Of a stretch of DNA of 64,000 bases, positions 22,521-43,159 are shown in pieces; the stretch's first letter is position 1; every line of letters begins with the position of its first letter. This DNA is from Litchfieldia alkalitelluris (GTDB taxonomy: Bacteria > Bacillota > Bacilli > Bacillales > Salisediminibacteriaceae): assembly GCF_002153425.1 (NCBI RefSeq), contig NZ_KZ119600.1:3810143-3874142 (forward strand). The letters run 5' to 3'. Made by a program: the position numbers and the translations under genes. Below the pieces are notes generated by a model, which saw only the letters and a program-made list of their open reading frames with translations, made no database searches and was not told the origin of the DNA.

Positions 22521-22566
22521 CGGTGGTGCTTCAAATATGAATATGAAATGCACCACCGCCCTTTTT
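22521..22566 (+). terminator. Rho-independent terminator
   Basis: CGGTGGTGC pairs perfectly with GCACCACCG and is followed by CCCTTTTT. It ends the DUF1292 gene and touches the last bases of the convergent msrA gene. Confidence 0.8.
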
Positions 22567-23206
22567 ACCAGCGTATCGAATCGATCATTCTAACTAACTC
22601 CCTTGCCGCATCCGTTGATAAGTTCCATTCATCTACTATTTCTTCCTTTATATGACGAATCGTTCCATACCCCTTAACAAATCCATTCAAGCGCGCTGCC
22701 AAGGTTGACGAAACTAGGTCCTCCTCAGAAGGATAGTGTCGTCTCAACGCCTCTACTGCAGATGGCCACCTTTTTAAATAATACTTTTGATGACGCTCTT
22801 CTGCGTTAAAAAAATGGTCGAGTGGGACAATCTCCGTTTCTATTTTCAAACTTAATTGCTGTTCCCATTCTAGTTTCTTTTTAGCTATGATCTCCTGTTG
22901 CTCCTGATCTTCATAAAAGAGGATCGACAAATACTGACGACCACCATATTCCCTAACTACTGGACGATGATTATTCCAAAACATATCAACAATATCAGCA
23001 AACGATATAATTGTTGGATCGAAATTCACTTGCAATGTTTCAGAATGATCGCCCATTTTTCTGTATGTGGGTGAGGGTGTTGTTCCCCCAGCATAGCCTA
23101 CTCTCGTACTGATGACTCCTCGTAGATGTCCAAACTGGGCATCTGGTCCCCAGAATCAGCCCATTCCAAATGTAGCTGTTTGAAATTGTTTTGAAGTACT
23201 GTACAT
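22565..23206 (-). CDS. msrA: Methionine sulfoxide reductase A with TGA (selenocysteine) at the catalytic position
   Basis: MsrA reduces methionine-S-sulfoxide. Reading from ATG 23206 (AAGGAG 8 bases upstream), 214 codons are open except codon 17, which is TGA (23158-23156). It falls exactly where the family has its catalytic Cys: FGMG-[TGA]-FWGPDAQFG matches the canonical GxGCFWGxE. The rest is intact: GVISTRVGYAGGTTPSPTY, MGDHSETLQVNFDP, DMFWNNHRP, SILFYEDQEQQ and EERHQKYYLKRWP. The protein has no cysteine anywhere, so no resolving Cys. A bSECIS-like hairpin follows the TGA. Selenoprotein MsrA is known in a few bacteria and in Chlamydomonas. The alternative, a recent nonsense mutation, would have to hit the catalytic codon by chance. 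A conventional call would begin at ATG 23056 and lack the active site. Confidence 0.85.
23124..23158 (-). promoter_or_regulatory. Candidate bacterial SECIS element in msrA
   Basis: On the minus strand TGA is followed by 11 bases and then AGATG-C-CC-AGTTT-GG-A-CATCT: a 5-bp stem, one C/A mismatch, 2 more pairs and a 5-base loop. The loop starts 19 bases after TGA and has G at its second position. Both fit the published bSECIS pattern (loop 16-37 bases away, G among the first two loop bases). A lower UUCU/AGGA helix is possible. Confidence 0.6.
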
Positions 23207-23301
23207 GTTCACAACTCCTTCCAAAACCGTAGTAATGAGAGATGTACATATGCTCCCTACCCAGCTCTATTACCACCGCAAGATTACTTCAAAATAAAAG
23301 G

Positions 23302-40570: not shown

Positions 40571-41377
40571 CTAGAAAACATTCCTCTCTTTTTTATACTC
40601 TTTTCTAAACTGGTTCGGAGTCATTTCCACACTTTCCTTAAAAAGTCTTGTAAAATACTTTGGCGTCTGATAACCTACAGCTTCAGAAATTTCATTAATC
40701 GTTAACTCTGTAGTCAACAATAAATGCTTTGCCTTCTGGATCCTGCTACGAGTCACATACTGACTAAAATTCAAATTTGTTTTTTCCTTAAATAAGGCAC
40801 TCAAATAACTAGGATTTAAATGGACTCGCTCCGCAACCTCACTCAGGCTAAGCTGATGATCTAGATTGTCATCGATATATGTCATCACTTCTTTAATGGG
40901 AGAAGCCGATGCCATTCCTTCTATGTCCCCATCTTCTTTACCTTGCACTAAGTCCTCATCAAAAGCTACTTGCATTAAAACTGCACGCTCTCGCATCTCG
41001 TCCTCTTTCAACGCCTTCTCTACCGCATCAACCAATTTATCCTTCGCTACAGGTTTTAGGAGATAATTAACGACTCCCAATCGAATCGCTTCCTGGGCAT
41101 AATCAAACTCAGAGTATGCAGACATGATAATGACAACCGGCTTATGTTTTTTTAGAACATCAAGCATACCCAACCCCGTCATCTCAGGCATTTTAATATC
41201 AGTAATGATTAAATTGACTTTTTTGTTGGTGAAAACTTGAATCGCTTCCGCTGCACTGGACGCTGTAATTAATTCCAGCTTATCCCCTGCCCAAGCATCC
41301 AGTACTTTCATAACCCCTCTCCTAGTTCGAGGTTCATCATCTACGATTAAAACTGTTTTCGTCTGGTTAATTTTCAT
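40571..41377 (-). CDS. YesN-type response regulator with AraC domain, system C
   Basis: Response regulator of 268 residues with receiver pocket DDE (13-15), phospho-acceptor Asp60 in LIITDIKMPEMTG, and the YLLKPVA Lys loop. A helical linker and two AraC helix-turn-helix motifs follow (EVAERVHLNPSYLSALFKEK, ISEAVGYQTPKYFTRLFKE). I take ATG 41377 as start; GGAGGG lies 10 bases upstream, and the in-frame ATG at 41395 adjoins the kinase stop. It is a paralogue of the regulator at 29691 and lies between its kinase and importer C. Confidence 0.92.
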   Translation of the reverse strand: MKINQTKTVLIVDDEPRTRRGVMKVLDAWAGDKLELITASSAAEAIQVFTNKKVNLIITDIKMPEMTGLGMLDVLKKHKPVVIIMSAYSEFDYAQEAIRLGVVNYLLKPVAKDKLVDAVEKALKEDEMRERAVLMQVAFDEDLVQGKEDGDIEGMASASPIKEVMTYIDDNLDHQLSLSEVAERVHLNPSYLSALFKEKTNLNFSQYVTRSRIQKAKHLLLTTELTINEISEAVGYQTPKYFTRLFKESVEMTPNQFRKEYKKERNVF

Positions 41378-41395
41378 TGACCCTGATCCCTCCAT

Positions 41396-43159
41396 TCATC
41401 CATTCAAAGGCAATCTAATGAAAACACACGTCCCTTTCCCAAGTGCACTTTCCAACTTTATTCCGTTTTGTCCATCATCAGGAAATGAAAGACGCAATCT
41501 CTGATTAACATTCACTAATGCCATACCATGTTTTGTCGTTACTGAATGATTTGTATCTGTATCCGTTAGTCTAGCTGTGACCTCATGAAGAGTTCCTTCT
41601 TCCATTCCAGCACCATCATCTTTTACTTCAATAACTAAATAACCCTTTCCATTCCAGTCTTCAGGTCTCACATTGACCTCAACTGAACCAACTCCCACCT
41701 TATTTCCAATACCATGTAAAATAGCGTTTTCCACAATGGGTTGAATAATTAGCTTAGGAATTTCCACTATTTCGAACTCCTTAGGCATGTTAACCTTCCA
41801 TGTTAACCGATCTTCAAACCGGATTTTCATAATTCGCATATACCGCTCCACATGGGTTATCTCTTCTTTCAAAGTCACCCAATCTTCCTTTTGTGAATTA
41901 CTGATCGTATAGCGAAACAAGTCAGCCATGTCTAATACATATTCGGAGAGCTCATCCTCTCCTTTTTCCAACAGATCCCAATAAAGAGCTTCTAATGTGT
42001 TAAAAAGAAAGTGTGGATTGATTTGTGCTTGAAGGGCTTTCAGCTCAGCCCTACTACGATGAAGCTCTTTTTCATAAACTACTTGAATAAGATGATTCAT
42101 CGTTCCAACCATGGTATTATACGTTGCATTTAATTCATCTATCTCAATAGTCGATGGAATAGACGGGTTTTCCTTAAGTGCACCTGCACTACCATCACGC
42201 ATCGTCTCCGTCAACTTTTGAATCGGTCTTGTTATCATTGTCGACAGTGGATAAGTAACTACAATGAATAATACACAACCTAATCCAACAGCGATCATAA
42301 GGGCTGTCCTAAGAACAGATACATCCTTTGTTACTGTACTAACTGGCGTTAAAAATATCGTTTCCCAACCAGTTATTTCTGAATGGTGACTTACCAGCAT
42401 ATATTCTTCATCATCAATGATTATATTTTCCCTGGATTCATTTAAAATAAGCTCATGATCTCCATCAAAATTAGATGAAATTAGGGAAGATTCTTGATCT
42501 AAAACGATAATATACTCTCCTTGATCTTGAGAATCCTCTACACTTAAATAATCCTGCTTCACTCTAGCAACTAAATAACCTCCTGGAGAAAACCATCTTT
42601 CTAATAACGTTACTTGTTTGATGGCGAGGTAGTAATTTTCGTCCCACGGATCCTCTCCTGCAAAAACCATTTCTCCTTTGTTTTCATCGGCCTTCTCGAT
42701 CCATTTCCGATCTACTACACTATACAAATTTCCATGATTCAGTGGAAGGATTCGATCCCCATCATTTAAATATAGCTCAAAGGATTCAATTCCTTTTGTA
42801 TATGCCAAAAACAAATCAACTACTTGCATCAAATACTGGCGTTCCTCAAAATTAGTTGTATATCCGTCAAGCTCTTTTAACAGTAATTCTTGTACATTTA
42901 TATTTGTTGACACTTGGCTTGATAATAGCTCCACTTGCTCATAAAGCGCCTCCATCCTCCCACTAGCTTGGACTGCAGTCTGCTGAATTTGCCGTTCTGC
43001 ATTATCCTGTAACATAGAAGAAACGATTTGAAATGTAATGATACTTACAATCGAAAAAACAAAAATCATCACAATCAAAAAAACTATTAATATTTGATTA
43101 CGTAAAGTATTGCGTTTTTTTAAAAAAGAAAGCACTGCACCAAACCGCCTTTCTAGCAC
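41396..43159 (-). CDS. YesM-type sensor histidine kinase, system C
   Basis: Membrane kinase of 587 residues with the same plan as the gene at 30497: first span (about 20-45), extracytoplasmic Cache-like sensor, second span (about 290-315), HAMP, His_kinase with His383 in QINPHFLFNTLEALYW, and HATPase (NAILHGIGNKVG, DDGAGM). The first gene of operon C. The assigned start is GTG; a second in-frame GTG about 8 codons on, with AAAGGCGG before it, is also possible. The bases upstream, 43160-43645, hold only a terminator and a stray repeat copy. Confidence 0.91.
   Translation of the reverse strand: MLERRFGAVLSFLKKRNTLRNQILIVFLIVMIFVFSIVSIITFQIVSSMLQDNAERQIQQTAVQASGRMEALYEQVELLSSQVSTNINVQELLLKELDGYTTNFEERQYLMQVVDLFLAYTKGIESFELYLNDGDRILPLNHGNLYSVVDRKWIEKADENKGEMVFAGEDPWDENYYLAIKQVTLLERWFSPGGYLVARVKQDYLSVEDSQDQGEYIIVLDQESSLISSNFDGDHELILNESRENIIIDDEEYMLVSHHSEITGWETIFLTPVSTVTKDVSVLRTALMIAVGLGCVLFIVVTYPLSTMITRPIQKLTETMRDGSAGALKENPSIPSTIEIDELNATYNTMVGTMNHLIQVVYEKELHRSRAELKALQAQINPHFLFNTLEALYWDLLEKGEDELSEYVLDMADLFRYTISNSQKEDWVTLKEEITHVERYMRIMKIRFEDRLTWKVNMPKEFEIVEIPKLIIQPIVENAILHGIGNKVGVGSVEVNVRPEDWNGKGYLVIEVKDDGAGMEEGTLHEVTARLTDTDTNHSVTTKHGMALVNVNQRLRLSFPDDGQNGIKLESALGKGTCVFIRLPLNG

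Follow-up and report, generated by a model that had tools for sequence, protein, structure and literature searches.

The stretch of DNA analysed here, 64,000 nucleotides of Litchfieldia alkalitelluris (hereafter the window), carries on its minus strand an msrA gene in which a TGA codon occupies the position of the catalytic cysteine residue. The features of this locus, and the selD gene located elsewhere in the genome, are as follows.

22565..23206, minus strand: msrA, 213 aa, its TGA predicted to be read as selenocysteine (U17); frame translation plus domain and structure matches
23156..23158, minus strand: TGA of codon 17, in frame, where the catalytic Cys belongs; same alignment column in 27/27 family copies
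23124..23144, minus strand: SECIS-like stem-loop of eight pairs with one C.A mismatch and the apical loop GUU, which begins after 20 nt from the UGA
23215..23220, minus strand: AAGGAG as ribosome-binding site, located by eye 8 nt upstream of the ATG
22610..22726, minus strand: C-terminal helical domain, residues 161-199, PF20939 match
L011 / L015:14325-15395 (genome C1:2558363-2559289), plus strand: selD with an in-frame TGA, KAG-TGA-GCKIG

The msrA frame runs from the ATG at 23206-23204 to the TAA at 22567-22565 (213 residues plus the stop), and the sole in-frame stop ahead of the TAA is the TGA at codon 17 (23158-23156), in the context FGMG-TGA-FWGPD. A 214-codon frame with one TGA in this context had been claimed in the preliminary description, made from the letters alone, and was confirmed here on the minus strand, the strand being missing from that description. 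The good ribosome site claimed there corresponds to AAGGAG at 23220-23215, and the protein was correctly said to lack cysteine, with zero Cys codons in the frame. The ordinary ORF listed at this locus is, as also predicted, a fragment of 163 aa (22565-23056) that begins past the active-site motif, and a gene caller unaware of selenocysteine (Sec) would probably trim msrA to this fragment. Five adjacent ORFs that were scanned look unrelated (L,D-transpeptidase-like, Myb-like DNA-binding, DUF1292, GH43 enzyme and ABC permease). The gap separating the 3' end of msrA from that of the DUF1292 gene, which converges on it, was seen by eye to hold a GGTGGTGC/GCACCACC hairpin with a T run after it (22522-22566), a probable terminator of the DUF1292 gene.

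The window protein matched PF01625 over residues 10-146 (3e-40) and PF20939, the 'Selenoprotein MsrA helical domain', over residues 161-199 (9e-7), and scored 124.7 bits with the NCBIfam model TIGR00401 msrA (cut-off 108.1). Its best match among solved structures was 4LWJ (residues 4-211, E 1.1e-55), which, like 4LWK, 4LWM and 4U66, is the MsrA of Clostridium oremlandii (CoMsrA) according to PMC4479559. Alignment to the CoMsrA residues named in the literature assigned the active-site landmarks to G16-U17-F18-W19, Y48, G52-D-H-S-E56, R90-Q91, H139 and Y142-Y143, with residues matching CoMsrA Tyr47, Glu55, Arg88, Gln89, His137, Tyr140 and Tyr141; the active-site landmarks are in place, in agreement with the earlier view that the other MsrA motifs are intact. 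The GUFWG motif with UGA at the catalytic Cys is given as a mark of selenoprotein MsrA in PMC13188914.

A search for the Sec-decoding genes had been proposed in the preliminary description, and in the host genome (4.88 Mb, six contigs) selA, selB, selC and selD were all found. SelA scored 526.9 bits, SelB 389.2 bits with SelB-wing domains, and SelD 413.3 bits. The tRNA-Sec gene scored 55.1 bits against a cut-off of 47, and ARAGORN reports it as SeC tca. The same profile search gave matches in 14/14 control genomes, above the cut-off in 5/14, and in genome G000 one match of 23 was above it; weak matches of other tRNAs presumably explain why every control was hit. The full set that makes up the Sec-decoding trait (SelA, SelB, SelD and tRNA-Sec) is therefore present in the host. 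selA and selD are adjacent on opposite strands, and selB and the tRNA-Sec gene lie approximately 10 kb further, with other genes between (genome C1:2555824-2571426). SelD has an in-frame TGA of its own (KAG-U-GCKIG), and it is therefore likely to be a second selenoprotein of the host.

Beside the tRNA-Sec gene, a phage-type integrase gene (PF00589) ends approximately 120 bp away (L009:9331-10829 and L169; genome C1:2571330-2600955), followed by a restriction gene of the Mrr type and by a replication-relaxation match below threshold. Approximately 29.5 kb downstream, the final 64 nt of tRNA-Sec recur as a near copy, at a place for which ARAGORN reports no tRNA. This arrangement resembles an integrative element that entered at selC and left the tRNA gene whole.

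Other selenium and thiol genes were searched in the same genome. Sec formate dehydrogenase was rejected as the keeper of the Sec trait, as all three TIGR01591 matches had zero stops within the matched stretch; the site could be assigned in one of them, L140, which has Cys at a Sec-like site. Selenouridine synthase was not found (highest score 20.6 bits, cut-off 219.75). The search for a Sec glutaredoxin covered the glutaredoxin family, in which ten PF00462 matches (E up to 1) had zero stops inside the match; four matches of the family were above the cut-off, with zero internal TGA. The bacillithiol gene bshC is present. A filtered scan for frames with exactly one TGA, covering the window and two sel stretches, returned three candidates in the window, none in L009 and two in L015, among which MsrA and SelD are real. 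The candidate at 40571-43159 was seen by eye to be two adjacent genes in one frame, a histidine kinase and then a response regulator, and the remaining two look like chance frames.

In the host's family, 27 of 35 genomes (a count that covers the host) were found to have a Sec-MsrA gene with TGA (E up to 1e-20). The host belongs to the same genus as Evansella, which NCBI taxonomy places within Bacillaceae. All 27 copies have the TGA at alignment column 17; as the same column carries it in 26 further family genomes, it is not a matter of chance. The phylum sample of 398 genomes gave 20 matches including the host (E 1e-36 or better), 17 with TGA and three with TGT/TGC at column 17, or 16/19 and 3/19 without the host. 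Sec-MsrA relatives in the family and the phylum sample share 38-59% protein identity with the window MsrA. In a named genome collection, scanned with six peptide patterns of which one holds Cys at the site and so favours Cys forms, the best 80 of 330 loci comprised two with TGA, 77 with TGT/TGC and one (L123) unreadable at column 17; the two TGA loci, from Evansella clarkii and E. tamaricis, are identical with the genes L030 and L034. In the alignment with Sec and Cys homologues proposed beforehand, column 17 itself is thus filled by either TGA or a codon for Cys.

These data bear on whether msrA is a pseudogene, or its TGA a sequencing error, with the cell relying on three Cys-MsrA paralogues. 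The genome does hold three more MsrA matches without TGA, all with TGT/TGC at the column-17 site, and two of the 27 family copies are damaged, perhaps as an early stage of loss of the Sec-MsrA gene: L045 has a frame disturbance plus one more TGA, and the frame of L054 stops prematurely. However, the TGA is kept throughout the family copies and in 16 of the 19 further matches at the identities given above, and the frame is otherwise open, for 183-196 codons past the TGA, in 25/27 copies. Further stops or frameshifts in relatives, named earlier as a sign against a selenoprotein, are thus seen in those two copies and absent from the rest. We consider a pseudogene or a sequencing error highly improbable, and favour a functional selenoprotein gene.

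The presence of SelA (over the cut-off) and of Sec-MsrA in the 35 family genomes was tallied by hand: both were found in 25, Sec-MsrA only in two, SelA only in three and neither in five. The two genomes with Sec-MsrA but without SelA are 76% and 80% complete, and the three that carry SelA without Sec-MsrA count against the selenoprotein reading. The co-occurrence gave a Fisher p of 0.003, or 0.0003 when restricted to the 32 genomes with a completeness of 90% or more, with the kinship of the genomes still in the statistic. A different reading of the codon would be that a different tRNA decodes UGA (readthrough as Trp or Cys), or that the internal-ATG fragment of 163 aa is all that is made. Although this downstream ORF exists, it starts after the active-site motif; homologues carry Cys, not Trp, at codon 17; SelA, SelB, SelD and tRNA-Sec are all in the genome, with SelA co-occurring; and pairing downstream of the codon exceeds the codon control in TGA genes only (see below). 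Readthrough or a lone fragment would thus be very surprising. The earlier proposal that UGA is read as Sec draws support from the decoding genes, the conserved TGA, the Cys at the same column in homologues and the hairpin.

Across the 27 TGA genes, a stem can form between columns 16-22 and 28-34 (numbering starts at the U of UGA), enclosing a loop of the form [A/G]GUU[U/C], or GGUAC in one copy. The mean was 6.44 of 7 pairs compared with 4.62±0.19 in codon shuffles (0/1000 as high), whereas the 77 Cys genes from the best 80 of 330 loci had 2.75 pairs at the same columns compared with 2.95 in the codon control; the control was a random synonymous recoding with the codon usage of the TGA genes, also for the Cys genes, and the relatedness of the sequences is kept in the statistic. 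Paired cells made up 92.1% at the hairpin columns compared with 18.5-46.6% when the columns were slid. The covariation score was above 500/500 shuffles; double-sided covariation was modest (two pairs, reached by 298/500 shuffles). The pair 20-30 is missing in 11/27 copies, including the window, where it is the C.A mismatch.

The bSECIS consensus given in PMC13188914 requires 16-37 nt from the UGA, a stem of 4-16 bp and a free energy at or below -7.5 kcal/mol. The window hairpin agrees with the spacing and stem rules, its GUU following after 20 nt and its eight pairs being broken by one internal mismatch; its energy is borderline, at -7.0 kcal/mol for the 24 nt alone and -7.7 in a 39-nt context, and the minimum-energy fold of the window's 60 nt pairs the hairpin region otherwise, across the UGA. 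The hairpin alone reaches -7.5 in 17/27 family copies. A stricter energy scan was passed by 15/27 family TGA genes (the window copy fails), 6/16 phylum TGA genes and 13/80 Cys genes. Energy-based SECIS calling was therefore rejected as too blunt to discriminate Sec from Cys genes, and the pairing against codon shuffles was relied on. We read the hairpin as weak but selected; the tests favour a SECIS, which is borderline for the window copy.

A quick tree built from 41 Sec and 78 Cys rows (119 in all) had five state changes, two of which are forced by starred branches; duplicates (L027, L058 and L059), damaged copies (L123, L045 and L054), L126, L127 and, by the E cut-off, the ordinary MsrA rows were left out of it. 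A careful outgroup-rooted tree of 68 rows comprised 38 of the 41 Sec rows (three long ones left out), 24 of the 78 Cys rows, chosen by hand, and six ordinary MsrA as the outgroup. It also had five changes, four of them in the ingroup and three forced by starred branches, and 0/200 bootstrap trees had only one change. The Sec/Cys codon was masked as X, several backbone branches have bootstrap values of 86-91, and counts of state changes alone do not separate gain from loss. Cys groups fall inside Sec groups in the Carnobacteriaceae, in the kin of Domibacillus, Paenibacillaceae and Planococcus, in Haloarcula and in one further family. The exchange of Sec and Cys, like the gene, the decoding genes and the conserved hairpin, comes directly out of the computation; a hand parsimony reading of the tree would make the ingroup ancestor a Sec form, with Cys arising about four times.

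In both trees the Haloarcula archaea (L130-L137) have a Cys-form MsrA amid bacterial Sec forms, a placement suggestive of transfer from bacteria; two of the Haloarcula Cys-MsrA were scanned, and neither had PF20939 at threshold.

Taken together, the sequence comparisons make it close to certain that the window gene is a functional selenoprotein gene encoding an MsrA of the C. oremlandii type, with Sec inserted at UGA codon 17. We infer Sec incorporation, enzyme activity and the reductant as follows. A Sec-tRNA with a UCA anticodon, carried by SelB, would be inserted at the UGA, aided by the hairpin just downstream. Sec17 would then act as the nucleophile, attacking methionine-S-sulfoxide to give a selenenic acid. 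Since this MsrA lacks a resolving Cys, its reduction must come from an external thiol; analogy suggests a glutaredoxin, or perhaps in this host bacillithiol, a bacilliredoxin or another redoxin, with bacillithiol or bacilliredoxin our candidate for the recycling.

A wider scheme is conceivable, though we hold it a little short of probable: Sec would be ancestral in this MsrA subfamily and Cys would have replaced it at least four times (in two Bacilli lineages, in Haloarcula and in another family from the phylum sample), the hairpin being lost as well, and in the Evansella family MsrA and SelD would keep the Sec trait, recycling going via bacillithiol rather than a Sec glutaredoxin. Bacterial Sec-to-Cys replacement is described in PMC13188914 as rare, with FdhA and SelD the main documented cases; its repeated exchange in MsrA therefore deserves a proper test.

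The enzyme type is known from other bacteria and ordinary in kind, selenoprotein MsrA appearing already in surveys (PMC1794560, PMC13188914 and PMC9312934). The most interest lies in the host range and the repeated Sec/Cys exchange. The earlier expectation that a selenoprotein would be unusual in a Bacillaceae-like host is only partly borne out, as this known selenoenzyme is present in most sampled species of one Bacilli family and the 2006 survey had counted three selenoproteins in Bacillales (PMC1794560). Our literature search found no paper joining Evansella with selenocysteine. The close Sec and Cys homologues offer a natural experiment on the reasons for which selenocysteine is retained or given up in bacteria, and on the way in which a bacillithiol-type cell recycles a reductase that lacks a resolving Cys.

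Among the best 80 of 330 loci, Cys homologues came from Planococcus, Sporosarcina, Paenibacillus, Cohnella, Domibacillus, Carnobacteriaceae and Haloarcula, with 42-57% identity. They resemble the window MsrA in that most alignments reach residue 204-213 and 66/77 are without another Cys in the aligned stretch, but differ in having TGT/TGC for TGA and hairpin pairing without excess. We had assumed the Pfam helical domain to be common to them, which was not borne out: PF20939 was at threshold in only one of the eight scanned, and their helical domain and subfamily status therefore rest on alignment. The closest known system is CoMsrA, described in PMC4479559 and PMC4333827 as a Sec enzyme without a resolving Cys, 20-fold more active than its Cys form, reduced by glutaredoxin but not by thioredoxin and dependent on its helical domain. 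The window host differs from that system in belonging to the genus of Evansella and in having bshC. Its glutaredoxin-family matches lack an internal TGA, whereas a selenoprotein glutaredoxin is reportedly, by the title of one paper, the reductant of a selenoprotein MsrA, a pair that we take to be that of C. oremlandii. In common with CoMsrA, the window protein has homology over residues 4-211, Sec predicted at the GUFWG site, zero Cys and the C-terminal helical domain, and thus it carries the marks of the CoMsrA type: PF01625 with PF20939, UGA at the catalytic Cys and zero resolving Cys.
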